Shown here piece by piece: positions 8,099-41,681 of a DNA stretch of 64,000 nucleotides. The notes beneath the pieces are model-generated. The model saw only the letters and a program-made list of their open reading frames with translations, searched no databases and was not told the DNA's origin. Source of the DNA: Sclerodactyla briareus (taxonomy: Eukaryota > Echinodermata > Holothuroidea > Dendrochirotida > Sclerodactylidae); NCBI GenBank assembly GCA_026419785.1, contig JAODTK010000411.1, positions 364,107 through 428,106 of the forward strand, given 5' to 3'. Made by a program: the position numbers and the translations under genes. Position 1 is the stretch's first letter. Each line of letters begins with the position of its first letter.

Positions 8099-8173
<75 letters not shown>
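8091..8173. repeat. (GC)n/(GT)n microsatellite
   Basis: GCGCGCGCGCG followed by an almost pure GT array. Alternating purine-pyrimidine tracts of this kind can adopt Z-DNA. The array abuts a dispersed repeat whose other copies are also preceded by GT arrays. Confidence 0.95.
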
Positions 8174-8760: not shown

Positions 8761-9134
8761 TAGTACATTCTGCCATTCATAGTCCTTGTGGAATGGCCAT
8801 ATAGGTTGTCAGAAATGAGTCAAGGAATCACTTAGCCTTGAATGAATAATGAAGACATTTGAAGAAGTCATACAAATGAGTTATCTCAACTGTACGAGGA
8901 CTAACATAAAGTTGACGCATTCGCTGTTTTACAAACTATGTCTAATGTATAGGCAATTGCAATCATTCACCCTATCCACAGAACGTTGTGATCGAAGTTT
9001 CTACTGTAACACTCCCAACACAGCAGATCACTGTGATCACGGCGCTTTAATAATGTGTCAATTGTATTAGGGCAGAATTCCATGTGGATCTGACGCGGCA
9101 TAACATCCCACTGTCCTAAGTGTTAACCCTACGT
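8761..9134. other. No gene recognised
   Basis: Short open frames exist but show no domain, splice or repeat support. Confidence 0.4.
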
Positions 9135-9792
9135 GAGGGCAGACTGGAAGAGTGTTGTTTAATGTGATGTATCCGGTTCGCAAAGATTGTGTAGAAATAT
9201 TCTGGAGAGAAAAATATCATCGCAATAAGAAGAAACCAACACGACACAGGTAAAATAATACCGATGCGACATTGTGTCCGAATCAATGCGAATGGATTAT
9301 ATCCAATTGCTTTCTCCTAAATGCAGTTAACGTACGTATACATGAACTGCCGCTGACTGAGGGCAGACTGGAAGAGTGTTGTTTGATGTGTTGTATCCGG
9401 TTCGCAAAGATTGTGTAGAAATATTCTGGAGAGAAAAATATCATCGCAATAAGAAGAAACACAGGGAAAAATAATACCGATGCGACATTGTGTCCGAATC
9501 AATGCGAATGGATTATATCCAATTGCTTTCTCCTAAATGCAGTTAACGTACGTATACATGAACTGCCGCTGACTGAGGGCAGACTGGAAGAGTGTTCTTT
9601 AATGTGATGTATCCGGTTCGCAAAGATTGTGTAGAAATATTCTGGAGAGAAAAATATCATCGCAATAAGAAGAAACCAACACGACACAGGTAAAATAATA
9701 CCGATGCGACATGTGTCCGAATCAATGCGAATGGATTATATCCAATTGCTTTCTCCTAAATGCAGTTAACGTACGTATACATGAACTGCCGC
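9135..9792. repeat. Three-copy tandem repeat of ~216-224 bp
   Basis: Units begin GAGGGCAGACTGGAAGAGTG at 9135, 9359 and 9575 and end ...CATGAACTGCCGC. They are nearly identical and differ by a small deletion in unit 2 (the ACCAACACGAC segment is missing) and single-base changes. The near-identity implies recent or homogenised duplication. Minus-strand frames recur in each unit only because the unit recurs. Confidence 0.95.
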
Positions 9793-19509: not shown

Positions 19510-19754
19510 ATATTTTCCAAGTGTTTGGATCCAGTGCTTCCAGTCGTGCTCAATCCGAGTGAGGCAATGAACGCTTACTGTGGGTTTGAGACAATGTGGC
19601 GATTTCGCCATGAGTACTTCTATTCGCCGAGTCATTGGTTACCTTTGACAGGACCCCAGGGAGTTCGGGCAGTGGAGATTGCCAGTTGTTGGATTCGCGA
19701 CCTTCCTTCTCGATTGAAGATTAAGGCGCGAATCTTGGTGAACATGCTGCCCAT
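19510..19754 (+). CDS. Candidate Tie/TEK-like Ig-region exon (paralogue A)
   Basis: The exon is bounded by GTGTGCAG|A (acceptor, phase 0) and CCCAT|GTGAGT (donor, phase 2) and is open throughout, about 81 codons. Its first eight codons read I-F-S-K-C-L-D-P. They align codon for codon with the exon starts at 34.8 kb (S-E-K-V-A-D-P) and 43.4 kb (E-S-E-K-V-(S)-D-P), and the following [VIL]-V-L segment is also shared. The C-terminal half (PLTGPQGVRAVEIAS) looks like the F-G strand region of an Ig domain, but the usual cysteine is not clear. The phase-2 donor fits the phase-2 acceptor of the exon at 23.0 kb. Receptor identity rests on the downstream exons. The main alternative is a pseudogene fragment. 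Confidence 0.42.
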
Positions 19755-20485
19755 GTGAGTTTTGTCAGCCGGTTGCCATGCACATGGTATCAAGTCATTC
19801 TTACCACAATATACTGAAAAAAGCGACATACCCAGGTTAGTAACCCGAAAACGTCATGTTGTGAAAGTTGTAAGGACCTGAATTAAAATTTGGTGATTAT
19901 TTTTATAATTATTGGAAATAGGTATAGGCCACATTATATTAGTAGCGCTAACATATCTCAATGCTATCAATTTACTCCGTTTTATAGTAACAGGTTAGAA
20001 AGAAGCGAGCTGCTTATTACACAAACCGTGATGAGGTTTTCCGTCTTGTGTTTAAGCCCTGGTGGTGATACCCAGACAATGGAGGAAAACTATAAATAAT
20101 GCTCTTCTGCAATCCATTCCAGTGATTTACAGAAATAAATCAATACTGGAGTCGATGTAACGGTCTGCTCAGCGAATAAGACGTGTCACTTTTACTGTAA
20201 TAAATACAATAATATGAACGCCTTATGTTCTATATTGCCGCAAGTTGTTCGGGTTAACAGGCTGTGGACTGTTTCGTTTAGCCGGGATGTAGGCCGGAAC
20301 GTATACGGAACATGACTAGAGATCGATACACCCAGTATTGACCGAAACTTGATTAATGACATCTAGTAGAGAGTCAGCCATGATGTTCGACGACCCATTC
20401 TTGGACTGCCGACCTCGGTCAAGTTCGACCAGTAGAAGTTGGTACAACTGTTGATCCTTTGACAAATGTCAGTAGGTAGGTAAGT
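19755..20485. other. No gene recognised
   Basis: Putative intron if the neighbouring exons belong to one gene. No repeat or RNA gene recognised. Confidence 0.35.
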
Positions 20486-20745
20486 GTTGGTATGTGTGTG
20501 TATGGGATTACCTGGCTATACACTCGACCCCACTTGGCATGGATAAAGCTCACACTTGGTTGTGGTTCCCTCGTGATGAGCGCATGAACCACATTGTAAA
20601 TCACCGGTCATACGAGGTCACTAGAGGTCAAGAGTCTGAAAACCTTGAATTGTGGTTCGATTCAAGTTGAAATTTAGAGTACAGCTTTCTAGGGGAGTCC
20701 AGGAACCCTATTGTCTTTGGTCGGGATCAGCGGACGTTGTTAATC
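20486..20745 (+). repeat. Dispersed repeat family R1, copy 3
   Basis: GGTATGTGTGTGTATG precedes CACTCGACCCCACTTGGCAT. Then come GCTCACACTTGG, CCCTCGTGATGAGCGCATGAACC, TCACTAGAGGTCAAGAGTCTG and AGGAACCCTATTGTCTTTGG, the same order as in the 8.2, 30.8 and 38.2 kb copies. Confidence 0.7.
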
Positions 20746-20968
20746 AAGAATAGAAATTTGGAAAATCAATATTTTGATGGAGGGTCTACGTCCTGTGAGG
20801 ATAGGGATGAGAAAGTGGGCAGGGAAATCATGTTAATACATTCATCGAATATTCCTTTACACCATACTCAGTTCTGGCAGAAGTGCCAACTGCCTTCACC
20901 GTTAACGAGTTCTTTCGTGGTATCTAATGCCAGGCGATAGAGGGCAAAGGACCGGTTACATATAAGCC

Positions 20969-21232
20969 ATCAAGGCAGGCTTTGGGAAGGAGAATAGAGA
21001 CCGAGGTCACCAGGGAGGGCTACAGAGCTCTGTCGTCAAGGAGGGGCCCCTGATTGTCTGGGTTGGCAGCCATAGGGAGGTCAAGGCAACCCAGCTGTTC
21101 CCCGGGACCCGAGTTGGCCGATACACCGGAACTCACCTCAGATACGGGGGGCTCTCAGCTGAAAAGGGTTACCCCTTCGTCAGGCCTAAAGCAAAGTATA
21201 GGTTCGTCCGTATTCGTCGGAACAAATTATAG
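20969..21232 (+). CDS. Open stretch of unknown function, no ATG
   Basis: One frame is open for about 88 codons from 20969 to the TAG ending at 21232. It has a balanced, charged composition and segments such as GPLIVWVGSHREVKATQLF and TGTHLRYGGLSAEKGYPF. There is no start codon in the open part, so it would have to be an internal or terminal exon. I recognise no family. It could equally be a fragment of a mobile-element protein or chance in a locally G+C-rich segment. Confidence 0.2.
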   Translation: MKAGFGKENRDRGHQGGLQSSVVKEGPLIVWVGSHREVKATQLFPGTRVGRYTGTHLRYGGLSAEKGYPFVRPKAKYRFVRIRRNKL

Positions 21233-22345
21233 ACCAAGTGGATTTAGCAAGTGTACCGTGTTCACACTTGTAGTCGATTCCTGTTCTTGATTTTCTTTCG
21301 GGCCCCGTAGGCTGATTGTGTTTCATCAAGATTATTATGTTCAAGCTCTCGAAAAAAATACACAAATTCATAGGTGACTGTTTCATAACTATAGATGAAT
21401 CTGATTTAATCTAAGGATTTCGATGAAAAATTGATAATTGAGTAAAATTTACAATTATTATGTAAATTCTTACACACTATACTTATGTAAGAAAAAAAAA
21501 TCACTCAAGCGTTATATTACTTGTCCGTCACGTGAGTGCTGGTATAAGTTTCCACTGACCAAAATCTCCCTTTGCAAGGGGAAACTCGCGAGCCACAATT
21601 GATAAGAGACATGGACAAAGCATGAATACTTTGACTGCGTCCTTATTGTGTCTCTATATCATTATTGTGCTGGAACGACAGAAAGCTTGGGCTGAGTTAT
21701 ATTCTATGCCGCTTCAGGGGACCATTAAAAGCCAATGGTCTCGTGTTACGAATGGACTTGATTTGGTTTTTCTATTTATTACATTATTGTAGCCAAACCT
21801 CCAGACCGAATTTCGACCCATGGCAAGAACCGCCCGAAATGATGATGAGACATGATTAGTTGTCCGCTAAATTCGTTGTGTGACATCACGGGGGGAAACC
21901 GGGGAAATACTTGTAAATGCAAGTCAATGCAAAACATAAAACATAGAACCCTTTACAACGAACTACGATGGAATCCAAATGACCCTTTCACAAAATCTTT
22001 CACAGATATTAGTTGAATAATACTTTTTTTTTCTAAGCTAATACCTATTTTGTCCCTCAGTATTCGAGTGCAACAATGCAGCATTCACTGTGTCCGAGTC
22101 TATGGGCGATCTTCCCCCCCCCACCCCGGGAAGATGAGCTTCCCCAAAATTCCCAAAACGTAAAATGGGTAAACTCAACAAGACAATTCTAGTAGCTCCA
22201 GATTTCTTTGGGGGTGGGGATTTGTTAGATGTCCTTCGCTTGTGCTGGTTGAAGGGAAGTGTCACATCATTTGGTTTTGATTCTTGTAAAGCGAATTAAA
22301 CATTTTTGATTTTGCGCTATAAAACCATCTGTGTAGTAAACAATT
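21233..22345. other. No gene recognised
   Basis: Near 22104-22125 an ATGGGCGATCTTCCCCC sequence resembles one end of the G-tract MITE at 3330, but no partner end was found. Confidence 0.35.
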
Positions 22346-22354
22346 AAAAAAAAA

Positions 22355-22392
<38 letters not shown>

Positions 22393-22449
22393 TAATAATA
22401 ATAATAATTAATAATATTATAATATAATAATAATAATATAATTAATAAT
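22346..22449. repeat. (AAT)n microsatellite
   Basis: TAA/AAT units with TA interruptions, preceded by a short poly(A). Confidence 0.95.
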
Positions 22450-23002
22450 GACCATTCGCCTTTAAAAGTGGTAATTTATCCAGGCATTAGAGGTCCGCGC
22501 AGTTGGTATTGTATTGTGGAAATCTAAGTTCTGGTCAATAGCAGATAGGTGTCAACTTCTGAAAAGAAGGTATCGAGATTGTTAGTGCATTTTTTGTTGT
22601 GCATTCTTATCGAACTGAACTAGGCTTGTCAATATCAACGTCTCTTTCGGAGATATGGTGTAAGTCTCATTTGTTATCCGAATCATCCTACTTGTCGCCG
22701 TTTTCTACTCAATTCTAGTGAGTATCATGCCCAGCTATCTTGACAATACGCCTTCCTGATAAAGTGAAGCGAACGCAAGTCTTTGAAAAAAACACTTTCT
22801 TCAAGCTAACTAGAACCTGTTCTTTTTTTTTAACTTTGTGCTTTCTTCGGGTTTTTTTTTTTTTGGTCCACTTGCCCAAGACTAAATTGTATTGATAATA
22901 ATTCTCACTGTTATTGTCATTATTTATTCTTCTGTTTTCTATCATGGAACAGAACTGTTGAATACCCTGGTATCTACACAGTCACGATCCACCCCACCCC
23001 AG

Positions 23003-23213
23003 GACTCGACAAAACTCGCTGAACCAGTCACGATCGGAGTCGGATGGACCCCGGAATGTCCGAAGTTTATCTGGTGCAAGGGTAGGCGTCGCTATGCAAC
23101 GTGGGAGCCCGCGTTTTACCCTTAAAAGCACGGAGGACGCCGGTCTGTACTCGATCTCTCGCCCAGGCAGGGGCAAGAGGGGATTGGCTGCTCAATTCTT
23201 GTCATTGCTGCCA
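23003..23213 (+). CDS. Candidate Tie/TEK-like Ig C-terminal exon
   Basis: One frame is open for the whole interval. The acceptor CCACCCCAG|G (or CTACACAG|T at 22982) is phase 2 in either case; the donor is TTGCTGCCA|GTAAGT. The exon encodes GVAMQRGSPRFTLKSTEDAG followed by LYSI. The D-A-G-x-Y pattern is the Ig F-strand signature, and DAG[LV]YS is exactly the form in the first Ig region of Tie receptors, where the usual cysteine is absent. The segment after it (GLAAQFLSLLP) corresponds in position to the hydrophobic G strand before the EGF modules. The 23.0 kb exon therefore sits where a Tie-like gene would have it, just upstream of the EGF exon at 24.6 kb. The donor phase (0) does not match the phase-1 EGF acceptor, which suggests a small indel or a different exact boundary. 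Confidence 0.55.
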
Positions 23214-23877
23214 GTAAGTTCGAAAGCTATCATACCATGCCTGTAAAATCGCAAGATATGATATATATAACTAATTGCATACACCGTCTAGGATCTTATG
23301 CAAAAAACGACAAAGCGAATGTAGCCCGGACGGGAAGTTTGTGAGCATAAACTATCCAAGGCTGTATGAGGAGTTTTGCTTTTTTTGAAACCCTGATTTT
23401 ACAGGACGACCGAACTCATATATATTGGCAAAAAATTATCCTGTCATAACCCTCCCACCTCCCCGCCTATCGTTCGGTGGTTTGAGAAAATACAAACAAA
23501 GACAACAAATGTCCGCATTTACTTTGCAATTCTGGGTCGAATGATGTCACTTTGACAATAACGGACTGTTAGGATCGTTAGAAACCGAAAATCGTCATCA
23601 TTGTTTGACCAAGAACAGTAATACAACAAAAACTAAACAAAGAGAGATCGATTTGTACAACATGACATGTATGTAGTTTCTTGAGAGACAATGAAATGTC
23701 TTTCTAAATTAATATACTACAAAATAATTCAGGAGTAAAGCCTGGTAGCTCAGTCGTTTGTTTTTTTTCTTTCCAGGGCCCGGCAATATCTTCATTATAG
23801 TCATTTCTCTACAGTAGCGCAGGGAGCGGATCAATCAGGCAACGGGGGAATGCCGCCCCCGGCAAGAAAAGAAAAAA

Positions 23878-24331
23878 AAAAACAGTTAAATACTTTTTTT
23901 TCGTCCCCATGCACAGTCACATTGAAAAGTGAAAAATGCTTTTTTCGCTATACAGTACCTCGCACACAAGAAAAATCCAGAACATAAATGAGATGGCTGA
24001 GATCCCAATATAATACTATATAATACTATAGCAAGCAGTTTCGATGCACATCAGGCGACCTCGGGGGTCATTTTCTGTGTTTTAAGGGGGATTTAATTTT
24101 AGACGTTCACTTATCGAACTTGCCAGAAAAAACCGGTCAAATGCAGTTGTTCGTCCTCACAATTACATTGAGAAGTGACAAATGCTTTTCTGTTAGATCG
24201 TATCACTCATACAAAACAAAACAACCCCAGAACATACGAGATGACCTGAGATCGCGATATAAATAAAGCTATAGTATAAGGTTTCGATGCACATTTTCGT
24301 GGGCTTTTAAGGGGAATTCTATACGTTTTAA
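23878..24331. repeat. Two-copy tandem duplication, ~250 bp period
   Basis: Units start near 23881 (AACAGTTAAATAC) and 24131 (AACCGGTCAAATGC). They share CACATTGAAAAGTGAAAAATGC / TACATTGAGAAGTGACAAATGC-type blocks, CCAGAACATA, a TATAATACTATA-like tract and GTTTCGATGCACAT. They are degenerate, so the duplication is old. Confidence 0.7.
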
Positions 24332-24633
24332 ACTAGCCATGTCTGACTAACCCTACCTGAGATTACATGGCATGTGTGTAAAAAATATTCACAGGAAACG
24401 TTCCCGTTCAAGGTGAATCAACTCATGAAAAAACATCGCACATTCTCCCGCCGCTAAATTATATTGACGTCGTCATAACATCAACAAGTTGCTTTGCGAA
24501 AAGTCGCTTTGTGAGGAAAGATGAGGCGTATTCCAGCTGCCCTATCTCTCCTCGACCAAGAAGGTAGGACAAAATATTCGTTATCATTTACTTGCAGATA
24601 ATGATTTGGCGATTTTACTCTTTTTTCTCACAG

Positions 24634-24775
24634 TATGTCCAGAATTCCTTTATACTCTGGCAAGGCGTTTGTACCGATTTTGGCGGCTGTTTGAACGGCG
24701 GTGTCTTGAGGGATGAAGCTGGAATAGAGATCTGCCACTGCCCCCCTTTTTTCGCCGGACATCGTTGCGAATGTG
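24634..24775 (+). CDS. Candidate Tie/TEK-like EGF exon 1
   Basis: Bounded by TTTTTTCTCACAG|TA (acceptor, phase 1) and GAATGTG|GTAGGT (donor, phase 1), the symmetric 1-1 phase typical of EGF modules. After an opening CPEFLYTLA the frame shifts by one base near 24661-24664. It then reads VCTDFGGCLNGGV, a short D-E-A-G loop, CHCPPFFAGHRCE. Cysteine order and the CPP-F-x-G-x-x-C ending match the first EGF repeat of Tie receptors. The interval is 142 nt; removing the one extra base gives 141 nt, a whole number of codons. Translation without the frameshift stops early, so this is either a decayed exon or a sequencing error. A generic multi-EGF protein is the main alternative. Confidence 0.6.
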
Positions 24776-25968
24776 GTAGGTTCACGTTTACACGAGTGTC
24801 ACGTGGATTTTCTCCTTTGATGTGGCGATCATTTGGACTCACCCTGTTCTCCTAGAATACCTTTCAGCTCTTCGATCCGAAACTTTGACCACTATGACCA
24901 TTCCTATGACCACTTGTATTGCGGTGGTTACTGAAAATATATGGGCGATTACAAGCTGCAAATCTCACGTGGATCAATTTATTAACCTTCTTCTCTTTTC
25001 TTTTTTCGTGAAAGGATTGCAACTGAAAACCAATGTCTGGTGACTTTCTATCTTGTGGTTCCAAATATGGCAGATGCCTATATGTGTCCTAAATTGAAGA
25101 TGAATTATGATGAAACGTGTAGTCCGTGGAATAGCCTTTGTAAAAAAAAATCAGTTTATTCAAATTCCTCAAGAGTCTGATAGACACGCGAACGTACACA
25201 CGCGCATGTACTAACGGACACCTTCATGAGTGCTTCTCATAGCTGGACCAACCAGCCAGCACCCATGAGTACCCCACCGTCGATTACCTTTTTTCACTAG
25301 CTCACAAGTTTCCGTAGCAACGTCATTTGGAGGCATAGCTGAACTTGACGCCCGCACTCGCTCGGGTGTGAAACACTTCCATGATCACGCGTACCGAGAG
25401 ATTTTTTTTTTTTTTTGGGGGGGGGTTTGCAGTCGGAACTCAAGGGAAGTGCGCCATCATGAATATCCTCTTCCTTCCTATTGGCAAATAAGTAGCCTAC
25501 AATTTATGGGAACCTAGAACACAAATGCGCTTTTTTTTGCAATCTTGCTGCTAAATAACAGCTGCAAAACCTCTACTGACCTGCGTTTTTTGTGTAAAAA
25601 ATCATTGATCACTTGGTCATGGATAGGGTTTTTCCTAAAGCCTCTTTCTGGCCCCCCGCCCCCTCCCCCGTCCGGGGTACGCCACCTGTCATTATGAAAA
25701 CGAGTTTTTGTTTTTCCGTTCGATTTGATTTGATCTGATTTGATTTGATTTGATTTGGAATAATCAAACAAAATCACGAATGTCAGACACTATCGAAAGA
25801 TCGTCGTCGATTGTGTCTTTTAAAGAATGTGAATTGGGCTATACATTATCATCTTCCGTCGTTTTCAGAGATGGGTAAATACAATACAAACACCCTGGAT
25901 TCTGATAGTTTCCACGCTACCTGCATGCCTTTTGTTCTAACAAGCAAGTCTGTCCGGTTCATATACAC
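24776..25968. other. No gene recognised; putative intron
   Basis: Contains a poly(T)-poly(G) junction at 25401-25427 and TGATT repeats at 25728-25757. A GGGGTACGCCACCTG phrase near 25674-25688 resembles the end of a hAT element, but no matching start was found. Confidence 0.4.
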
Positions 25969-28632
25969 CAGGTATGGGCAACCCTCTTTTTTTTTTATCT
26001 GGGGCCAAATAGCATTTCACCTCCAGCCTGCGGGCCAGAAAGCCGAAATGCTTAATGATCCCTTGATTTTCCCTCGATATACAAGTGTTTGTCCTACTGT
26101 TTTCGTTACCAACTTTCCCAGACTCTGGTCACCTCAAATGACAAGTACCTGCATCAAAGCATCATGTATTGTTCTCATCTTGGATTCATAGCTCACCCAC
26201 ACACGTCACAACATTCATACAGACGGTACAGAGTTCGCATACAATGCCAGGTATTCCTCCGAAATCAATGATAAGAAATCAAATGTTCATGTGTCGATGA
26301 TTTCAACTGTATATTACCTGTTTACTGTATTGACTTGATACTAAAAAACAAAAAGAATACATTGTGAAGCGTTGAGTGACATTATGCATCACTGGACGGT
26401 AGGTAGTTACCTGTTGGTCCTACTGATTGTCAATGAGAAGACTGTGCTTGCATCTTGCTCGCGAGTCCAGATATATTTGGACGAGTCGATGAAAACAGTC
26501 GACCGCTCTTGTTTTGTTGCAGGTGCTGGTCTGTCAGTCGCGTTCTGTGATCTGATTTGGTAACCTTTTCATTCTGGAGAAGAACCGTTCACATTTGTAT
26601 GTGCTTCCAACTAAAAGAACAGAGCGTCCACCCAAGTCTCTTAATTTTTGGGTAACTTCTCCTCTCTGTCACACTATCTTGTAGAAATGCAGCAAGTCGT
26701 TTTCCCCCGCAATGACTTTCCCGTTGGCATACCTCGTTCTGGATTTCATCAGATCATCTCCATTTGTAATACCGCAGTCGCTTGATATCGCGCGGTGATT
26801 GACTGCCGAACATAGTGTCACTGTAACTTCCTGCTGCCAAAAGGAAATCTTGAAACGGGCAATTGCAATTCGCAATTAGGTTTTGCAACCTCCTGTTTGT
26901 ACTGTTTTGTATAGCCGTATCCAAGGTCACTCACAGTGGTTAGAGTGGGGAATGTGTTGTGTTTCCTCTCCTGATCTGGCTCTTCCCATACCTCAGTTTA
27001 TTGGCAGAACTGACGATGTGTCCGAATAGCTCGTGCACGAACTGCCCCTCTCGCGTAACTGACTGTTCAGGTCGTTCATGTGGTTTGTTACATCTACCAG
27101 AAAAGCTAAGTCCCGCAATCCAGTTCGGATCACTAATCCTCCACGTGCTCCATATCTTCCAAGAAAATTCTGATCCTCTTCACGAAGATCAAAAAGAGCC
27201 CTTTAGCGCGGCCCCGACTAGCCAACGTACTTTCGCAATGGAATGGAGGTCTTCATACTCCGAATCAACTTCCTTCTTTCAAAAATTCTTTGAATTGTCT
27301 GTGTTTCAGAGCCCCTTTCCGAATTTTGTTGACGCATGCCACAACCACTGTCATTACATGGGCCATTTCACTGATTTGGCACAGAGATGCTCTTGGATGC
27401 ATGATGCGTGATTAAAATGTTACTTTTATCTGGAATCTCGCCCAAGAGAGCTACATATTTTCTGATACAGCCCATAGTCCTAGGAGTTCCACCACGCAGC
27501 GGCCCCTCATTCGCTACCCCGCAAGAATCCTCCACCTCAGGCCTATTTCTCAAACATCTTCAGGAGTTTCATTGAAAATGTCTTGGTCCTGTGGGTCTTG
27601 GTCTTCCATGGAATGCCATTCAATTCCTCTGTTACATTAAAGTTTGGTCTATGCCCCTGAAAAAAAATTGCAAGCTGAGCTGTGTCGCTTGCGTCGGTGG
27701 ATTCGTCCATTCCTAACGACAGGTGCACAAAATCCTTCGGCCTTTTCCTCGTATCTGCTGATCAATGTCATCATTCATTTCCTCAATTCTCCTAGCGATC
27801 GCCTTCGTGATACCTGACCTCGTTAACCTTTCTGATCAGACTGTGCTTCTTATCGAGCAGCCCCACCACGTCCACCAGACACTCCTTAACAAGTCCCCAT
27901 CGCTGAAGGGTTTCATCGTTTCGCAATTGGTCTGCGACAACGAAACGGGTTGGTTTTCTGTTATCTCGTTTGTTTGTGCCGTTGCTTCCCTAAGACATTT
28001 TCCTGTCACGCCACTTTCGCGTCAGTTTTTTCTACTTCATGTGCCTCGCTGCGTCGTCCAGATCCGCATATCTGGCATTATATCGCTCATATAATGTCGT
28101 TTAATATTGTATTCCTTTATGACTGACACGGTTTCATGGCACACCAAACAAAGTGGTACGTTTTTCAATGGCACAAAATATTGGGAGGTCCATTTCTCCT
28201 GGACAACCCGTTTCTCTGTGTCAACTTTTCTCTTTTTCGAACCATTGTGCCTTCATTTTACGGCGCTGCCGGCCTTCTGCATAACTTCGCTATCGCGGTC
28301 TCAGTTCCGCGAGACTAACTAGTTACTAGTAACCGTTTCCACATGTACGACATTAATTGTGTGATTTATTCACTTCAATTATTGATCCTCAAACTGGATT
28401 AGCGTAATAACGTATGCGTAATTTCGAATTCTGTGGAAACACAACTACATATTTGGTAGCCTGGAAATGGTTAGTGTGTAAGTTATTATCATTATAGAAG
28501 TTTTCGGGCCAAAGTTCCTCGTATATCAGCTCGCGGCCGGATACTCGTGTTCGCCGTCAACTCGTTCGCGGGCCAGAAAAAAATGATCTCGCGGCCGGAT
28601 TTGGCCCGCGGGCCGTAGGTTGCCCATGCCTG
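25969..28632 (-). mobile_element. hAT DNA transposon, 2.66 kb
   Basis: The left end CAGGTATGGGCAACC and the right end GGTTGCCCATGCCTG are inverted repeats of the CAG-type hAT terminus. Flanking 8-mers ATATACAC (25961-25968) and ATATACTA (28633-28640) agree at 6 of 8 bases, an eroded 8-bp target duplication. Just inside the ends are the GGGCCAAAT/GGCCCGCGGGCC motifs typical of this hAT group. A broken transposase occupies the minus strand. The element lies in what would be the intron between the two EGF exons. Confidence 0.88.
26360..28330 (-). pseudogene. GTF2IRD2-like hAT transposase, broken
   Basis: Minus-strand translation shows the domains of the hAT transposase that also gave rise to vertebrate GTF2IRD2, in order. 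First is a BED/C2H2-like finger near 28175-28085 (PLCLVCHETVSVIKEYNIKRH), then ARRIEEMNDDIDQQIR near 27810-27755. The first catalytic region is at 27715-27650 (MDESTDASDTAQLAIFF), then LCAKSVK near 27390-27370 and EVDSEYEDL...VRWL near 27285-27220. A segment near 27060-26985 contains GQFVHELFGHIVSS. The hAT dimerisation region near 26610-26500 reads CERFFSRMK then TRLTDQHLQ. Each block lies in a different frame and stops interrupt the gene, so it cannot make a full transposase. In life the enzyme binds the terminal repeats and cuts and pastes the element. Confidence 0.85.
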
Positions 28633-28640
28633 ATATACTA

Positions 28641-30348
28641 TCGAGCCATAGTATCGGCGATGGGTATTTTCACCACAGTGTGCCACTTTCTTCCTGACAA
28701 GGTCCACGTTGCCGGACACCGATACGTACGATTATGCAGCCTCAATGGTACCCCGGCAAAATGTCCCTGAATCCTGAACAATCCACCCCACGGACAAGGG
28801 GAGTCACCCAGTACTAGCACAGAGGTTTATGGGGATTGTAGTCCCGAGAAGGGGAAATAGGGTGGGGGGGAACTTGCAGTTAGTTCAATCTCCATCCACT
28901 AGCAGAGGACCTCATCGGTCTGCCTCAACTTTTCCAAGTAGTGCCCCTTATTTCAAGTTTCATGTTGTCAACGCAGTGGGATGGCCTAATACAATGAGAT
29001 TGAAAATCTTTGTACTCTGTACTGCATTATAAACCAAAGTATACATATCCCTAACTCATATTTCTCACCCAGAAGTAGACAGAAAAACTCTACTGAAAAA
29101 AGGGTAATGGAAAACGGCATTAATATCACCTTGTACCACAATGATACGCTCATCTTTCGACATATATTTGCACGTACAATTTTTTTTAGATCTCACCCCA
29201 TTAATGTTCTCCCCAGGCTTTGATCGAAACTGCCTAGTGGGTTTGGGGATAGGCTTCCGTGTGACTCCTTGTAGGCAGTTCTTCTTGTCATAAAAGTGCA
29301 TTACGGCATTTTATAACAGACTGTGCAACAGTTGGTTCCTGGATCCTTCTGTGCCCTGGTCAGCTTGGGCAAGCGGCCTTCGGGTCATATGAATTAGGTT
29401 TCCTTTAGCTTGTCCTGATCCTTTGTCTTGTATTTTTGTACGTTTGTATATATTTTGGATCATGGATCAATGAATAATGTAAAATGATAAAGGACAATGA
29501 TACTGCCATACCCTCAGAACATGACTCTTTTCCTTATAACATGTAATATAACATACTGGCTACGCCACTGGCTGGATGCTATACCTAGAGCAGAAATGGG
29601 ACGAATCGCACTTGTATCTTCAGGTTTAAAAATGCTGGTGACTTGCCATGATTGAGTGATTTGCTCTATTGAGTTTGTATAGTGACTTGTCTGAAATTAT
29701 TACCGTGCCCTAAAAATAAGGCTGCACCAAATAGCAAAGCGGCTGACTGTTGAGGCACTGGGGCCCAGAATTCGCTCAACACTGACCAAGACCATATTTT
29801 TTCATCGCCAGTAAGCATCAGCCTTCGACAAAAACCCACGAATTTCCACAAAATTACATCAGTAGACCCTGACATTTCAAATTCCCATAAACAACAGCAA
29901 CTAATCAGGACACGAACGCACAAACCTTGTCTTTATTATAGTAGGCTAATTTTCTCTGCAATAGCAGACAAATATTTGTGAAAGCCCAAAATATTAGTCT
30001 CATGTGTTGGTCTTGAAGCAAGATATCTCGCCATTCCTCTGATAAAGTCCACATTCTCTAATCAACACTTTTTTTTACTACAGTGACTATAGTTCCGCAT
30101 CGCTCTGTTTTTGGATTGGTAATGTATAATGCGCAATCCCCATAGTGGAGACATTTTCCAGTTCAGCGCATATGCGACACCCGACTACCAGTGATAACAA
30201 GTCACGTGGGGTATCGACCTGCAAGGAAATTCCTGTCGCATGACTGCGATTACTAATATTAACAAGCCACCGAACAGATGTTTCCATTTGGGTCACTGCC
30301 TTTTTATTCCTTGACGAAAGTCCAGGAATGCTCAGTGAGTCTGTGTGA

Positions 30349-30350
<2 letters not shown>
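28641..30350. other. No gene recognised
   Basis: An 85-codon minus frame (29666-29923) has no recognised motif. A GGCTACGCCACTGG phrase at 29559-29572 resembles a hAT end but lacks a partner and target duplication. Confidence 0.35.
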
Positions 30351-30386
<36 letters not shown>

Positions 30387-30393
30387 TGTGCGC

Positions 30394-30480
<87 letters not shown>

Positions 30481-30639
30481 TGTGTGTGTGGGTGTGTGGG
30501 TGTGGTGTGTTTGTGTGGTGTGTGTGTGGTTTGTGTGTGTGTGGGTGTGCGCGTGCGTGTGTGTGTGTGTGTTGTGTGTGTGTGTGTGTTTGTGTGTGTG
30601 TTTGTGTGTGTGTGTGTGTGGTGTGTGTAAGTGAGTGTG
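30351..30639. repeat. Long (GT)n microsatellite
   Basis: About 290 bp of GT repeats with TTTG and GG interruptions, the longest simple repeat in the window. All long frames across it (His-Thr or Cys-Val rich) are artefacts. It lies about 180 bp upstream of an R1 repeat array. Confidence 0.97.
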
Positions 30640-30816
30640 AGTGCATTCAATGCTTGGGGTGTTGATTTTGGCATAGCTGCTAACTGTGACCGGTACGCTC
30701 CCCTCCCCACGCGTACTCAGGGCTTATCGGAGCATCGTTCGTATCGCTGTATTGGGCGAGCCCACCGGCTGATAAGGTGCTGGGAGAGTGCCGCGACCCC
30801 CACGTGGTCGGCTGAA

Positions 30817-32760
30817 CCTGGCTTGTAAACACAATAACTCGACCCCATCTGGATGGATGAAGGTTCCCCATAGAGAGTACATGATCTTGATGTTTTGGCG
30901 TCAGGTCAAGAGTCATCTGAGGTCAAAAGCTTGCAAAAGTCTGAATAGCTTGTAAACACGATAAGTCCAGAATGTTTTGTCCTGCCAAGCCGAATTTGTA
31001 TGCAGTTTTTCTAATGGGGCGTACACTACCGCTATTTTTGGTAGTCAAATTGATTAAGAAAACCAAATTTTTTTAAGGGGGGGGGGGGATTGAGAAGTTG
31101 TGAAAAAAAATAATTTGGGCAATTTTTGGTTTGGATAGAGATCATACTCGGTAAGCAGCTTCCTCATGATGAGTACAAAAATATAATTGTTTTGGGATCA
31201 GGTCAAAAGGTTGTCTGAGGTCAACATAATCCAATGCCTGAAAATCCTTGTGTTCGCGATAACTTCATACATGCCGGTCCGATAAAGCTGAAGTTTTTTT
31301 TCGCAACTTTTATATGAAGAGTACATGGGCTCTATTTTTTGTGTGGCTGGAGGCCTTCCTTGGTAATTCGGCTTCATTCGAATCGAGCTCATACTTCGTA
31401 TTTGGTTTTTTCCCATATGAGTACATAATTCACTCTATATTTTTGAGTCACTCGAAGGTATCTGAGGATAAAGTCTGAAACCTTGTTAACACGATGAGTA
31501 AGAATGTTTGGTCTGATCAGGCTGTAATTTTATATAAGCTTTCTCATGAGAAGTCAAAAACCCTATTAATTTTAATGTAGACTAGGGGGTTCTTGGAAAA
31601 TAATGGAAAAAGTGTGATAATCAATATTTTTTTTGTGTGCCAAATTTTTGGCTTTTTAACACGGTAATCGCCCTCACCTGATGGTCCAAGACAGACTTGG
31701 ATGTGGGTTCCCCCTATTGTTTTACTTTGTAGCTGTTATTTCTGTGGTCATATCAAAGGTTACTTGAGGTCAACGAAGGTCAGAGTCTAAAATCCTTGTT
31801 CACACGAATGTCCGAATTCCAGGGCCCAATCATCAGAATCAATCTGCAGCTTTCTCTTGCTGGTTTAGTCTGGTATAGTCCAGCGGTCTCTCTAAGAGAT
31901 GATCAAAATGGGGAAAATTTCGATAGTTTGGTCATTTTGCTTATGGCACGATAACGCACCCTTCCTTAGATGGATCGAGCCTCATACATGGTATATGGGT
32001 TCCTCATAAATGAGTACTGATCCCCATCAATTCGGGTTAGTCAAAGTCATTTGGGGTCGACAGCGGCCGCGAGTCTAAAAACCTCGTTGACAAAATAACC
32101 AGGTCCGATCATTCCGATCAGGCTGGCATTTGACTCATAACTCTTTGATTTATCGCTCCTCTTGAAATCACAGACCCCTATTTAAATTTCTCTAAACCCG
32201 GGGGTCTGTTTGGTGAGAAATTGTAAAATTCAATTTTTTTTGGTCAATTTCGGCTACCTACCACAATAAACTCGCGGCCCCGCTTGGATTTGGATATATC
32301 TAGACATGGTATGCGGGTTGCCACAGGAGTACATGATCCTGTTGTTGTTGTTGTTGTTGTTTGCTGGTTAGCTGTTGCTTCATCAGGTCAAATGTTATTT
32401 TAAAGAGTCTGAAGACCTTTTTTAACACAGTAAGGTCAATGTTTCTGGTTCTGAATCCAGCTGAAATTTTGGGTATATAGTTGTCCACATGAGCAAATAA
32501 GAACTCTGCTGTTTTCGGTGTAGCCTTACTCCGGGGTTCGGTTTGAGTTTTTCTTTTCTTTTTAGTCTGGTCCAACATTGGTTTATTGGGTCGGGTCAAA
32601 GCTTAAGAGGAGTGGAAGTCTAAAAATTTAATTAAAACGAGGGCTTGGTCCAATTAATGGTAACTTGGTACGCAGCTTTTTTGAAGGAGGAGTATATGGG
32701 GAGTATATCCTCCAAAATGGGGAGTATATGAAGCCATTGTTGTAGAATAAACCCTGTTTT
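30817..32760 (+). repeat. Dispersed repeat family R1, array of degenerate units
   Basis: The array opens with GGCTTGTAAACACAATAACTC, then GACCCCATCTGGATGGATGA, and continues through many degenerate units. Each unit carries some of 'tcctcatgatgagtac', 'ttttggg-tcaggtca', 'tctgaggtcaa', 'gtctgaaa-cctt', 'aacacgat' and 'ctgatcaggctgaaatt'. The units are strongly diverged and interrupted by A/T and G runs (for example 31077-31089). A (TTG)n tract sits at 32341-32362. No protein domain was recognised. Confidence 0.7.
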
Positions 32761-33141
32761 CTGGGGGGGAGGGGTGAAAAAACTTATGAGAATGTTTCTA
32801 TTGGGACTAATTTTAGCTTTTGAACAAGTTCATTTACCTCGCAGCGATGGGTGGGTCTTAAACTTGGTTATGTGGCTTCGTCATAATAAATACATGAGTC
32901 GACGGTGGGTTTGGTTAGGACAAGGGAAATCACTACGCCTTCTGGCTTGGTTACGAGTCACCTCACGTGAGACAATCGAGAAAATTGCCCTATGTTTATT
33001 ACACGCCGTGGGCCGAAGGGGGGGGGGAGTATCCACCATCATCATCATGTATATAAAGGAAGCAGGTACATGCAAACTTATGTAGTTATTTTCTTTATTA
33101 TTATTATAGTTGTAAGAGATGGACTCCGTTCGAGGTCTCAG

Positions 33142-33286
33142 GTTTCTGTTGGCCGAAGAGATTCGAACCCGTTGTATGCGGGGACTTACCGGGAGGCAAT
33201 GGTCGCTGCCAAGGCTATCTGTTTTGCTTCGATGGCACTCGGGTGTAAGTGCGCTCATGGATGGCACGGGGATGCATGTGACAAAC
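33142..33286 (+). CDS. Candidate Tie/TEK-like EGF exon 2
   Basis: Bounded by GGTCTCAG|GT (acceptor, phase 1) and GACAAAC|GTAAGT (donor, phase 1). Translation gives FCWPKRFEPVVC, then GGNGRCQGYLFCFDGTR, then after a one-base frameshift near 33240 CKCAHGWHGDACDK. The cysteine spacing (C-x5-C, then C-x-C-x8-C with G-W-x-G) and the Y-x-F-C signature match the second EGF module of Tie receptors closely, and better than a generic EGF repeat. The 145 nt would be 144 without one extra base, again symmetric 1-1. The indel makes the present reading frame non-functional unless it is a sequencing error. The closest alternative is another large EGF protein. Confidence 0.65.
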
Positions 33287-33511
33287 GTAAGTAGTTAAAC
33301 GCAAAGTCCAGCCAAAAATATTTAAATGCAATATGATAGTGCATTGGAAATAGGGACAAATCAAATTTCTTGTAGTTCATAGCATGATCGGTTATAAAGT
33401 ACAAAAAAAATAAAAATTATTAAATTATCACTGCTAAGTGGCAATTTTGCCAAATGGCAAACATTGATGACGTCTATTTACCAATTTTGCAAGAGAAGAA
33501 ATATGTCTTAA
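33287..33511. other. No gene recognised; intron side of EGF exon 2
   Basis: Nothing recognised between the donor of the EGF exon and the TTAA-flanked element. Confidence 0.4.
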
Positions 33512-34083
33512 AGGACAACTGCGGGGAGTTATACAGGGGCTGGATAAAAACTGAACGCGTCAGTCCTGAAACCGGAAGTTAATAGGACTTCCGGTACAGA
33601 AGTTAGAGTCATTTGAAGTGGGTATTTGGGAAGCAGGTAGGGGCAAGATCAAAATGCATCCCATCATGCAATAATCAATGATGCTCATACTTCCACAACC
33701 CTGCAAACAATCTTGTTCTATATTATGAAACTTCAAAGATATTCACTTCGAAATGAATTTAGTCTATGGGAGAGATTACTGTAGTGGGTTGGTAGGTGTT
33801 GATGGTACTTGTGAGGAGAAAGACAACAGAGCTTCTGCTAAAGTGTTGACTTATTCACAAAATGAAACAATCAACATACATAACAGAATTTACTGTGTTT
33901 GTACGCCTGTTGTGACGTCATGCGTTATTGCGCAATGGTTCTCCCCAATTTCTCTGCTTAATGGCCCAAATTGAAAGCCCATAACTCCACAATCGTATTG
34001 AAATGGGGGGGTTTGGACCTATAAAGATACAGTTTTCATTCTCCACAATATAACCCCGGTTGTATCTAAGTCTGCAGTGTCCT
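33512..34083. mobile_element. TTAA-flanked non-autonomous DNA element
   Basis: Ends read AGGACAACTGC and, reverse-complemented, AGGACACTGC; similarity extends to about 22 bases including a shared ATAC. The tetranucleotide TTAA flanks both sides (33508-33511 and 34084-34087), as for piggyBac or Kolobok-type insertions. No transposase was recognised in the 572 bp, so it is a MITE or internally deleted copy. The superfamily is not decided between the TTAA-specific groups. Confidence 0.7.
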
Positions 34084-34810
34084 TTAACTTTCCCCTCATG
34101 ATTGGCTAGATATGACATCATTAAAAAGTTTCAAGTTTGCAAAAAATCACCAAATTATATGAAATTGGAGGGAGCATATTCTCAACCGAACATGCTCTAA
34201 ACCTGTAGAAGCAAAGTGATCTTGAATGTTTTTTTTTTTGAATGCTCTTTAAATTATCAAACACCAGGAAAAAGAGAGTATTGATTTGGTGGATTTTGCC
34301 TTTAAAACGTGATTCCTTGCAAAAAAAACGTGGAATAGGCCACCGGATTTACACGTTACTCGAAGCTCTGATAATTCGTAATAATACCAGGAGCCATGGG
34401 CATCCAGATCAATCTGAAGAAAGAAAGGAATCATAAATGTTTGACCCGTTTAACTTTGGGGCAAAACGAACCTTCCCTGGAAAATAGAAGAGTGGTATCT
34501 GTGGCGCTTGTAATTAAACTGCTGGTCTGATTCCCCCAGTAGGGGAAACGGACACTCAAAGGAAAATGGCGTATCGGGTAGTGAATTGACGAAATGAGTT
34601 TAGTCCGAGTCGATCGACTGTGATACTTTATCGAACCGGTGGCTGTTGTACTGGCAGGTGCGATGGGGAAGGGTCTGGGTCTCCACTTCTGGTTACGCTG
34701 TGATGCCGTGAAGTTTTGCATGGGTCACTGCATGGGGTTGTTTCGGGGTATTGCGATAGTCCGTCGCCCATTGTGAAAGTCACTGGGGGCATGATCTATG
34801 CTTTCCCCAG

Positions 34811-34935
34811 GTCCGAGAAAGTGGCGGATCCTGGTGCTCACTGCCTCGTTCTTTCGGGAGGACGTGAAATGGCGGCCCCGGGAGCAGGTCAGGATATGAT
34901 ACCACATGCTCGATATCATCTGAGCAAGTCGAGAA
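34811..34935 (+). CDS. Ig-region exon, paralogue C (degraded)
   Basis: The start is CTTTCCCCAG|G and the end GTCGAGAA|GTGAAT, aligning with the acceptor and donor of the exon at 43443-43572. Shared sequence includes GAGAAAGTG, GGATCCT, ACGTRAMATGG and the donor GTGARY, and the homology continues about 70 bp upstream of the acceptor. It encodes S-E-K-V-A-D-P-G-A and then L-V-L before the frame is lost relative to paralogue D. The upstream part is also open from 34716, so an intronless reading is possible. Base differences from paralogue D are numerous, so this is not a recent copy. Confidence 0.4.
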
Positions 34936-35331
34936 GTGAATGCGAGTTTTCTCGCTGGTGCCCATCCAGATCAATTCGTTCAGGGTTCCTTGATGAGCCT
35001 TATGGGATTTTGGGCAAGTAGAAATCATATCAAACAATTGTAACGTGAATGACGTTTCATCTAAATACATGCACTCCGAACCCTCGATCAATGATAGATA
35101 ATACTGACCATAATAATCCGCAATCTTGTAGTGAGTCCATTATGCATTCTCAACTAATTGCTCAACTCGATCCCTCAATATCACTTGATTGTAAATCACA
35201 GGATGGATATCCAGAGTCGGTGTGATGTCAGTGACCAAATATTGTAAATTATCCAACTCAGTCCGTCTTCGGCGTTAACAGACCGACGGATGGATGCATG
35301 GATAGATATATAGTTCAATGTATATCTGCAA

Positions 35332-35450
35332 TTTCCACAGCCTGTGCAAGGGAAGATGGGGAGTGAATGCGAACTGGAGTTGTCCGAATGGAATCTATGC
35401 GACCCTTTATCGGACCGAACGATTTTGGCGGTTTGTAATCTGGAAATTTG
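35332..35450 (+). CDS. EGF-like exon fragment (Tie-like, cysteines lost)
   Basis: Starts after TTTCCACAG. Translation reads LCKGRWGVNANWSCPNGIY then ATLYRTERFW. The frame C-x-G-x-W-G-x-N...W-S-C-P-N-G is the opening of the W-G type EGF repeats found in Tie and related receptors. Two expected cysteines are replaced (A in VNANW, L in ATLY), and a further VCNLE lies in another frame. No convincing donor was found before the TCC/TTC microsatellite starts at 35464. It is probably a decayed exon of a second Tie-like unit that begins with the 34.8 kb exon. Confidence 0.4.
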
Positions 35451-35463
35451 AAGACCGAGAGGA

Positions 35464-36439: not shown

Positions 36440-38090
36440 GTTTAGTTTAGTGAATAAGGGTACGGAAGGACAAATCCTCATAAAACGACCCCCGAGAGCA
36501 CAACATCCCAGGAAAGAAAAATGACAAAACACTAAATGATTCGCCTGTGATTCATGAAAAATAAATCAAGACTGTTTTGAAGGCATTCACACTCTTAGAC
36601 AGAACACATTTTCAGGAAGACAATTCCACGCACTGATCACTTGTTCTCTCTGGCGAGAAGAAATATTACGAATGTCCAATCTGCAGCGCTCTGCCACGAA
36701 GCTTGAGCAGTGGCCTCTATTTGACAGTAACATGGAAAATCAAAGAAGTAGTGGCAAGGAACGGCCATCGAGTCCATGGACAAATGTGAAAACCTGAATA
36801 AGTCTACCCGAATTCGCCCTCAGCTCCATGGTCGTTTAGACCGAAGACGCCTCACAATCTTTATCGTAGGATAAAATTTTTCAGACAGTCAATCCTTCTA
36901 GTTGCCCTCGCTGAACGTTTTAAATAGCTGCTGTCTTTTGCAAAGTGGGATTCCACACTTGTACAGAAGATTCCAGGTGCGGTCTACCAGTTGCTAAACA
37001 AGCCTTACAACAATATTCTATGTATCAAGGAAACTAAAGTGAGTTGATCAAGCCAAGAATCCAATTACCTCTTCTAGCAGTTCGGCACATGCTTGGAAGG
37101 TTTCTAGAAGAATCAAAACAAACCCCAAGGTCTTTTTCTGAATCACCTCCTGAATATTTTGGCCATTTAAAATGAGGAAGCGTTGCGATGTGAAAACCAA
37201 CATGCATAAACTTTGAACTGTGAACTTTGAAAAAATTTGCCAGTCGGAAGACAATTTGGAAATTATATCCAGATCCTTTTGAACAATTTCAACATTTTCG
37301 AACGACCTACCGATACCTTGGTATCGTATGCGAACTTCTTAACCCTTAAATGAACAGAACCTTCAAGATCGCAATATACGCCAGAAAGAGTAGCGGACCG
37401 AGAACCGATCCCTGGGGAACGTCACTAGTGACCTTTTGCAAGAAAGACGACCGCCCATTAAGGACAACTTAGTTGTTTCCCTATTATGAAGCCACTCACG
37501 AATCCACTTAAGGACATTCCCCGAGCCCAAAGCTCTCCAACTTGAGAAAGAGACGCCTCAGGAGGAACCTTGTCAAAAGCTTTACTAAAGTCCAGGAAAA
37601 ATTATATAAATAGCATTGCCGTTGTCGACAGAACATGTAAGCGTCAATAAATTCCACGAGATTAGTCAACACTAGAACGATTTTTCCTAAACCCATGCTG
37701 AGAAGCCATAATCAGGACTATTGCTATTGAAATAATCAAACCATATGATCCCGAATGCTTTGATTTCCATTACCTTGCAGACAACACTCGTAAGACTGAC
37801 TGGCCTGTAATTACAAGGAAGAGAACTGTTTACCTCTCCTGAAAATAGGAGAACATTTGCTCTCCTCCAATAATACGGAACAATACCTTCTTGCAGAGTC
37901 TCTTAGTGAAAATAATAGCTTAATGGAAAGACCACTCGTCGGCCAAAGGATTTTAGTAAGAAAGGATAAAACTCCCGTCAGGACAAGGAGCTTTATAATA
38001 TTGAGCTTTGCAGTTTCTCCTTAATAAACCACAGAGCGACCACACCATATTACATACTATGAGGAGAGAAACCCCGACAACTAGTGTCAC
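36440..38090 (-). mobile_element. CR1/Jockey-like LINE remnant, reverse transcriptase
   Basis: Minus-strand translation gives non-LTR RT motifs in order: QHGFRKNRS near 37705-37680, FLDFSKAFDKVP near 37600-37560, VLKWIREW near 37515-37490, and GSVLGPLLF-like near 37420-37390. A KFADDTKV-like segment follows near 37345-37315, where the present sequence reads FAYDTKV so the catalytic aspartate is altered. Then come IQEVIQ near 37165-37145, and RRIDCLKN and the C-terminal GLND-GAEG...RVDL segment near 36905-36790. Frames change repeatedly and stops are frequent. The EN domain is absent, so the copy is 5'-truncated. The clade is an estimate from motif style. Confidence 0.85.
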
Positions 38091-38244: not shown

Positions 38245-38470
38245 GACGCCGGGCTGTAAACATGATAACTTGACTACCCTTATGTTGATGAAGCTAATAC
38301 TTGGTATTGTTCCGATAATGAGAACTCTGACCTATTGTTTTGGGGTCAGGTCACAGATCCTTGTAAACACGATTAATTCCAGAACGCTTGGTCAAATCCA
38401 GCACACAATTTGGGTTGCATCATAGTGAACACAAGAAAACCCTATGGTTTTTCATAAATGTGGAAATGCA
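38245..38470 (+). repeat. Dispersed repeat family R1, copy 5
   Basis: Starts GACGCCGGGCTGTAAACATG immediately after the GT array, followed by GATAACTTGAC and TATTGTTTTGGGGTCAGGTC. Then come CTTGTAAACACGATTAATTCC and CCAGAACGCTTGGTC. Same order as copy 1 at 8174. Confidence 0.75.
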
Positions 38471-39819: not shown

Positions 39820-41681
39820 ATGGAACTCTCAAGAAACAATACGAAGGCTGAACACACTGACTGATCGGCTAAGAATATTTTTTCACAAACAGAAAACTGA
39901 TAACATTTTCAACAAATTAACCGTTTAATATTTAGAAAAATGCTGACCATTCCCCTTGAGTCCTATTGAACTGGCACCTAACTATAGGCAGAAAACTAGT
40001 TGGAAGGAGAAACAGTAGAGACATTTGGGCCTCATTGTAGGGTACAGTTGAGTCCCGTCGAGTCCAGTTGTTGCCCTCATCTGGTTGTGTTTCTGAGTAT
40101 TATTGAACCAGACAGGAAGCGACCACTTCTCTAAGAACTGGAATGTATTGGGGAAAACGGTTAGGTCTTATCGGATTAAGTTGGAGTCCGTTCCGTGAGT
40201 TTCCACGGCAGGCATCAGTTAGGATTGCCAACTGGGTAGTCATCAGAAATATTATAATACGGATTGACCGATTGGAAACTCTGTTGAGACTGACATATTT
40301 TGCCATTGGTAATTTCAGATAAACCCTAGACATTGGGGTCACTCTTTTATAGGACCATTCTGAGGAACAGGATTGATTTTAGCCTGATAAGTGTAAGTTA
40401 ATCTGAGTAGAATGTAAGGTCATCAAACTGAATTGACTATTCCTAGAATTGGCAAAATTTATTTGTTAGTGATTTTCCTATTTTGGCGATCTTGATATCT
40501 ATCAGTTTCGATGTGACGTGCTTTCGACATTACGAATAAATTCGGTGAAATCATTGAGTTTCCTGTTGAAATTGGAATTACTTCTACAATGGTGACGCGA
40601 GAATGTAAACTTGTTTGAGTGAAATGGGAAGCTTCCATCAACTCGCTATGATACAACCCCCCCAAGTCAACAGTCGAAGAGACGCCATACTTGTGTGTGT
40701 AGTGCCGATGGAATGGGGCTTTCCAAACGAGAAGACTTTGTACCAAGTTTATTCTAGAATGGAACTAGAATGTTGATAACGTTTGCCCGGCAAGCACATC
40801 GAGGCCTCTTCTGAGTGATGTTCGGATTGACGGCTGATAATTGTGGGTTACTAAATCACGATCTAACAAGATTTGCATTCCCGGACGGCGACCAAGCTCG
40901 CAACTAGCATAAGCAAGCCACATATGCCCGGCCAACCTGGTAGAGCCACCCTATGCGCGAAGTAGCTGTTAAAGGCGTATTCCTATGCACGCCACTGGTC
41001 TGCCTTGAAAACAGCCCCTATTGCGCACAAGCATGCTGAAGCCGCCCCTATGGGAATGGTCGATTGATGTATGCCACAATCCAGCGTGTGTTCATTCTAG
41101 AAACAACAGCCCCAATGGTGCTGTATCTCAAACTGACACCAAATGAATCACGACAATCAAAATTATGTGTCATATGTGTGAGATCATGAAGTCCAGAAGC
41201 GCGAACCCCGGAGTTTCACAACAATTTGCCATGTTGCCGTGTCACAACTTTTGACCTTGATCTATAATGCAACATCTGTCTTAGAAGTCATTAAACATTG
41301 CTACTTAGTTAGGTCAACATCCACCGAAGAATAACTATTGTGAGAGAACAAGGCGTGGTGATCTGCCCAAATGTCTCGCACGCTTTGCAATCAGTGGTTT
41401 TCCATTAGAATGAAGCCAATGACTAGCTAACTTACCGTCGAGTTGAAGATGTAGTTGTAACAACTCTGAGAGAGAGACATTCCCACCCATTGGAAATGCC
41501 AATCGTAAAACTTGTTAAAATCTGGTCCACCTAATTAGCATATTTTATGCTGAACTTCTAGTACGTCCATGAACAGCCATCTTGATTATATGCCACAGTC
41601 AAACCACATCATTATAGCTTGAGGGTCATGGAGTAATCTTGCAAGAGGGTGAAACAATAAAATCTATGGAATAGGCAATTA
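39820..41681. other. No gene recognised
   Basis: About 1.9 kb with no recognisable protein domain, RNA gene or repeat family. Confidence 0.4.

Follow-up and report, generated by a model that had tools for sequence, protein, structure and literature searches.

Intact Tie2 binds its ligand through an Ig/EGF head and signals via an intracellular tyrosine kinase. Among the echinoderms, the sea urchin SpTie1/2 is introduced in PMC12113024 as a receptor tyrosine kinase and called an orthologue of Tie1/Tie2 (the paper describing it also stands in the reference lists of PMC6494969 and PMC13409769), and PMC13409769 names another echinoderm Tie-like protein, the Tie-2-like receptor TPKRT2 of the starfish Asterias rubens. 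Here we describe a locus in a 64-kb stretch of DNA from the holothuroid Sclerodactyla briareus (contig JAODTK010000411.1; the whole stretch is referred to as the window) that is probably an eroded, most likely dead copy of a Tie-like receptor gene, represented by its middle part only. On the plus strand, the remains of that middle part would extend from about 22.95 to 33.29 kb and consist of the end of an Ig domain followed by EGF1 and EGF2. An intact relative would be expected to bind ligand by the Ig/EGF head and to signal by the intracellular tyrosine kinase; SpTie1/2 is described as a receptor tyrosine kinase, and the window gave no kinase match above noise. The locus is likened to SpTie1/2 and TPKRT2 by description. 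With the Tie family already known outside vertebrates, we would place it there as a fragmentary, broken member.

The likeness in sequence is to human TIE2 (TEK; PDB 2gy5 / 4k0v). Like the human receptor, the locus has EGF1 and then EGF2, probably after an Ig end, a Y-S in the motif of the Ig F-strand, and an eight-cysteine EGF2 with the motifs C-x-x-Y-x-F-C and GC-x-CA-x-GW-x-G-x-x-C. Unlike it, the copy in the window has a frame break in EGF2 and a Leu in place of a Cys in EGF1 (at the cysteine of TIE2 GVC), and the DNA downstream of EGF2 has no match to EGF3, the third Ig, FN3 or the kinase above noise.

The EGF1-EGF2 pair and its likeness to Tie2

The human TIE2 ectodomain (723 residues, of which residues 1-520 are identical to PDB 4k0v_A) was compared with the window on both strands by local alignments that allowed frameshifts and counted stops, with 1515 bases of simple repeats masked beforehand. 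EGF1 and EGF2 were the top two listed matches on both strands: EGF1 scored 80 at 24667-24804(+) without a frameshift and EGF2 scored 78 at 33177-33285(+) with one frameshift. The third match (65) was of a size that simulated windows also reach (maximum 69 in 20 windows). Single modules, with five matches listed for each, were compared with 60 or 200 order-2 Markov windows, and the pair and the kinase with 200. EGF1 alone scored 73, against null maxima of 55 (60 windows) and 59 (200 windows), and EGF2 scored 78, against 60 and 57, confirming the two EGF exons that an earlier note on this DNA had placed at 24.6 and 33.1 kb. The two modules, adjacent in TIE2, stand here in TIE2 order on the plus strand. 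Together they scored 151 (73 + 78), whereas pairs in that order on one strand, no more than 20 kb apart, reached at most 112 in the 200 windows (about 1e-7 in a Gumbel fit). Identity to human TIE2 amounts to 15 of 30 aligned residues in EGF1 and 14 of 37 in EGF2, with both alignments covering the later part of the module only.

Comparison with 177635 distinct PDB sequences separated the contributions of the two modules. EGF2, joined across its frame break with an X, had four matches at E <= 10, three of which were Tie2 chains (best E 0.0088); the sole other match was an unrelated oxygenase (E 1.1), leaving Tie2 only below E = 1. The joined EGF1-EGF2 piece also had Tie2 as its top match (E 0.0036), followed by factor VII (E 0.0056), which covered EGF1 only. 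Because Tie2 is the top PDB match of the pair and the sole one below E = 1 for EGF2, and because the modules lie in the right order on one strand, the pair supports a Tie-like gene or its remnant. EGF2 carries the Tie signal, and EGF1 and the Ig piece are consistent with it without being specific. We infer descent from a Tie gene on this basis.

The Pfam matches of the EGF2 pieces all fell below their cut-offs. The best model was EGF_Teneurin (E 0.0048 for the joined piece and 0.00033 for its end), and EGF_DL_JAG and EGF_PEAR1L gave weaker matches to the end of EGF2 alone. Human TIE2 EGF2 likewise fell below every Pfam cut-off, with weak matches of which EGF_DL_JAG was the first. As a point of method, the specificity of Tie EGF2 allows it to be picked out in decayed DNA even where the Pfam EGF models miss their cut-offs. 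Searches of other contigs gave 60 pattern matches for the EGF2 of the window among prokaryote contigs and five for human TIE2 EGF1-3 among viral contigs; none of either set was confirmed, as expected for an animal gene.

Table 1. Features of the window, in order of position
Feature	Position	Strand	Remarks
Open exon-like stretch, left limit of the region in the earlier note	19510-19752	+	No Pfam or PDB matches; excluded from the gene
Ig-like C-terminal exon candidate	22953-23213	+	F-strand DAGLYS at 23136; donor GTAAGT at 23214; start and whole exon uncertain
EGF1-like exon	24634-24775	+	142 nt; acceptor CTCACAG, donor GTAGGT; reads YVQNSFILWQGVCTDFGGCLNGGVLRDEAGIEICHCPPFFAGHRCEC
hAT-like DNA transposon	25969-28632	-	2.66 kb; terminal inverted repeats CAGGTATGGGCAACC / GGTTGCCCATGCCTG; lies between the two EGF exons
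EGF2-like exon	33110-33286	+	177 nt; acceptor TTATAG, donor GTAAGT
105-codon stop-free frame	34704-35018	+	No Pfam match; between EGF2 and the right limit of the region in the earlier note
Open exon-like stretch, right limit of the region in the earlier note	35341-35454	+	LCKGRWGVNANWSCPNGIYATLYRTERFWRF; no Pfam match; no donor at border; excluded from the gene

Exon borders, reading frames and further modules

The Tie-type pattern of EGF2 cysteines and motifs, which we derived from the single human TIE2 sequence, appears only across one frame break. The first half of the module (CKRW...CQGYLFCFDGT, with five of the eight cysteines) is Tie-like in one frame and the second half (LGCKCAHGWHGDACDK) in another, so that GYLFC and CKCAHGWHG, both reported in the earlier note as parts of one EGF2 exon, are both present but in different frames. 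When the second half was kept fixed and random upstream pieces of the window took the place of the first half, 9 of 4873 scored equally well; the first half alone was equalled by 23 of the 4873 (1127 of 6000 pieces had been discarded for masked bases). Since only 9 of the 4873 pieces fitted equally well, the frame break is probably part of the real history of this sequence.

Donor-like sites follow all three pieces (GTAAGT at 23214, GTAGGT at 24776 and GTAAGT at 33287). The plus strand of the window contains 13 GTAAGT and 80 GTRRGT strings, and 2 of the 13 GTAAGT stand at the ends of the Ig and EGF2 pieces. The EGF matches were made without splice information and the donor-like sites are therefore independent support. 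EGF1 and EGF2 would each occupy an exon of their own with recognisable splice sites, one intron having taken up a transposon. The phase-1 borders that the earlier note assigned to both EGF exons do not hold in the sequence as read. In the EGF1 exon, whose length is not a multiple of 3, the open frame has phase 0 at the acceptor and phase 1 at the donor. For the EGF2 exon, 1-1 phases are obtained solely in the frame that loses the Tie-like first half and the five cysteines in it. Phase-1 borders throughout require assumed indels; with two in EGF2 and one in EGF1, the sequence would be compatible with ancestral exons of 1-1 phases, as the earlier note proposed. As the sequence stands, the Ig donor falls after a whole codon (phase 0), in agreement with the phase-0 entry of EGF1, and the EGF2 exon ends in the frame that continues from EGF1.

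In the six frames of the window, the DAGLYS of the Ig-like piece is the sole match to the pattern D[AS]G[LVIMFE]Y[SA]. It corresponds to DAGVYS of TIE2 Ig2, both having a serine where the usual Ig F-strand pattern has a cysteine. Counted by hand, 26 residues lead from its D to the GTAAGT donor, as many as TIE2 has between the corresponding D and the first EGF1 cysteine. Between the proposed acceptor and the donor, none of the three reading frames stays open throughout. From its context (motif, position and donor), the piece is likely to be the Ig end that precedes EGF1, although its sequence leaves this unproven.

Downstream of EGF2, the best listed match was 44 for EGF3 (null maximum 51), 48 for the third Ig (null maximum 61) and 50 for the FN3 repeats (null maximum 70). 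The earlier note had reported no kinase exon in the window, and our scans agree with it: the best match to the TIE2 kinase anywhere in the window scored 53 (minus strand), close to the null mean of 54.4 and below the maximum of 73 in 200 windows. The EGF3 scan of the whole window listed two matches of 52, one within the EGF2 exon (33241-33285) and one at 3920-3980, as well as 45 at 4389-4464 and 44 at 41447-41470. The score of 52 is one point over the null maximum of 51 in 60 windows. We rejected the candidate at 3920-3980, a 20-residue frameshifted match upstream of EGF1, and the one at 4389-4464; by eye, neither has the EGF cysteine pattern. A general EGF profile found no third EGF module in the window (third match 27, versus a maximum of 41 in 100 windows); the profile was built with the EGF1 and EGF2 of the window included and is hence circular for those two.

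Pfam models were run on 10-kb stretches in three frames with stops as X, plus-strand 29.4-33.29 kb being represented by the EGF2 pieces only. No family matched at E <= 1 on the plus strand in 34.0-64.0 kb and 0-19.5 kb. The 33.29-36.29 kb stretch, searched in shorter pieces, gave two DUF matches only (E 0.37 and 0.67), and in plus-strand 19.4-29.4 kb the sole match was a weak one to tyrosine hydroxylase (E 0.028). On the minus strand, Pfam coverage comprised 44-54, 25.9-28.9 and 36.4-38.7 kb, with no match in 44-54 kb, and the TIE2 ectodomain and kinase scans covered the remainder. As a check of power, diverged copies of human EGF3 were scored alone, with model replacements introduced into human TIE2; out of 40 trials at each setting, copies at 30, 40 and 50% target identity beat the null maximum in 39, 40 and 40, respectively. 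The DNA between EGF2 and the end of the window extends for 30.7 kb, and further exons could lie beyond it. The later exons are either gone, were never copied, are much more diverged, or lie more than 30.7 kb away.

A decayed copy and its rivals

We consider it moderately likely that the locus is a Tie-like gene copy that has eroded and most likely died, with its middle part only in place. The shifted exon frames, the lost EGF1 cysteine and the failure to find any downstream receptor module indicate that it most likely encodes no working receptor. For the same reasons (frame breaks, lost cysteine and no downstream modules above noise), the term remnant fits better than gene in the earlier proposal of a Tie-like gene or its remnant, for which the EGF1-EGF2 pair speaks. 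The source of the fragment would be a duplicated or truncated copy. A processed (reverse-transcribed) pseudogene was rejected as its origin: the pieces lie 1.4 and 8.3 kb apart and have splice-site-like borders. A frame break within an exon-intron layout, as in EGF2, is what an unprocessed pseudogene would have, yet the EGF exons form one open chain and sequencing error is possible. The behaviour of EGF1 in the Pfam searches, in which human TIE2 EGF1 and EGF3 pass the EGF_2 cut-off and the EGF1 of the window has no match at all, fits a decayed or strongly diverged module.

Several results weigh against a decayed Tie copy. All Tie comparison rests on one human protein, and the missing Pfam match of EGF1 also sets it apart from its human counterpart. 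Searched against PDB together with the Ig end, EGF1 gave 40 matches at E <= 10, headed by factor VII and Notch and with no Tie2 chain in the list. By itself, EGF1 looks like a generic EGF module and not a Tie-specific one. Best matches to unrelated EGF proteins, which the earlier note had named as evidence against its proposal, were thus found for EGF1 alone and not for EGF2. The Ig F-strand of that note survives as a unique plus-strand motif in a fitting position but has an ordinary alignment score: the piece scored 30 against TIE2 Ig2, a value reached by 161 of 2764 random window pieces (236 of 3000 had been discarded for masked bases), and the same TIE2 Ig stretch scored 37 to 53 at eight other listed places of the window. 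A further GTAAGT at 33245 lies inside the EGF2 exon. The power check was generous, with cysteines mostly kept, one indel per module and none for FN3. The indels in the window could be assembly errors. Finally, one compatible chain of frames (entry in phase 0, followed by 1 to 1) stays open over the full length of both EGF exons, which leaves room for a strongly diverged living gene.

Such a living Tie-like gene, with very long introns, its other exons beyond the window and frame breaks caused by sequencing errors or divergence, seems to us unlikely. It would account for the donor-like sites after the three pieces and for the open chain through both EGF exons, and the window stops 30.7 kb past EGF2, so later exons could be outside. 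It accounts less well for the Tie-like first half of EGF2, which lies in a frame that the open chain does not read and is seldom matched by chance (the 9 of 4873 pieces above), for the lost EGF1 cysteine, and for the lack of an EGF3 above noise within 30.7 kb. Elsewhere in the window, three 81-nt tandem copies are identical, as are two 64-nt copies, and identical repeat copies speak against an error-rich sequence, with the qualification that consensus calling could mask errors in repeats. The Leu for Cys in EGF1 is not explained by indel errors. A variant in which the open exon chain encodes a living, kinase-less Tie-like protein of this invertebrate, a soluble or decoy ectodomain in which the Ig end and EGF1 are followed by a heavily changed EGF2, is very improbable.

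It is also quite unlikely that the exons belong to another multi-EGF gene (for example MEGF/PEAR1-, teneurin- or Delta-like) and that the Tie likeness of EGF2 reflects shared EGF ancestry. The matches of EGF1 to factor VII and Notch would suit such a gene, as would the Pfam ranking of the EGF2 pieces, with EGF_Teneurin first and EGF_DL_JAG and EGF_PEAR1L weaker, but human TIE2 EGF2 gives the same kind of weak Pfam matches, with EGF_DL_JAG first. Moreover, Tie2 was the only EGF protein matched by EGF2 in PDB at E <= 10, a partial test because PDB may lack PEAR1/MEGF10 chains. That the EGF-like strings were simply picked by eye from 64 kb of chance sequence is barely credible. The Ig piece alone is of chance strength and single-module scores are modest, but the pair exceeded all 200 null windows, with the Gumbel estimate given above, and donor-like sites stand at the module ends.

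If the locus is a dead Tie-like copy, it carries little weight in itself and would be the trace of a single past event in which an animal lineage duplicated or lost such a gene. Its importance would grow with an intact Tie gene and several such fragments in the same genome, as the pattern of invertebrate Tie copies bears on the origin of the angiopoietin-Tie system of vertebrate vessels.

Surroundings of the Tie-like stretch

The hAT-like transposon makes up about a third of the 8.3 kb that separate EGF1 from EGF2. Its flanking 8-mers (ATATACAC / ATATACTA) are equal at 6 of 8 positions, and its minus strand carries a degraded zinc finger of the Spin-doc type (PF18658 zf-C2H2_12, E 2.5e-5, 24.3 bits for a cut-off of 27.3). 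We take the element to be a hAT from its features. A reverse-transcriptase relic at 37540-37715(-) (RVT_1, E 0.014, below the cut-off) is likely a retrotransposon remnant and lies outside the Tie-like stretch.

As candidates for more Ig/EGF exons or a second Tie copy, we examined and rejected three open stretches (19.5, 34.7 and 35.3 kb); they had no Pfam match and no likeness to the Tie pieces above the null, and the first had no PDB match either. Compared with the window, the 19.5-kb piece scored 48 at 33099-33191 (null maximum 57), the 35.3-kb piece 47 at 24636-24686 (null maximum 55) and the 34.7-kb piece 44 at 22894-23062 (null maximum 60). The longest stop-free plus-strand frame listed in 19.5-35.45 kb has 155 codons. 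A search of the window with Rfam (gathering thresholds) and for tRNAs gave no match.

Base composition ranges from 36 to 45% G+C per 2 kb and, together with the long simple repeats, gives the window an animal-like appearance by eye. TG/GT repeats at 30342-30643 (about 300 bases) and 8101-8173 (73 bases) generate spurious cysteine-rich frames. At 9134-9792, a 216-base unit occurs in three tandem copies with 94% matches overall and an 81-base part identical in all. A dispersed degenerate repeat around GATGAGTACATGAACCCTATTGTTTTGGGGTCAGGTCA has 7 listed copies, at 8244-8701, 20684-20729, 31160-31353 and 38308-38353, and the DNA from 30.8 to 32.7 kb resembles, by eye, a diverged array of the same repeat.

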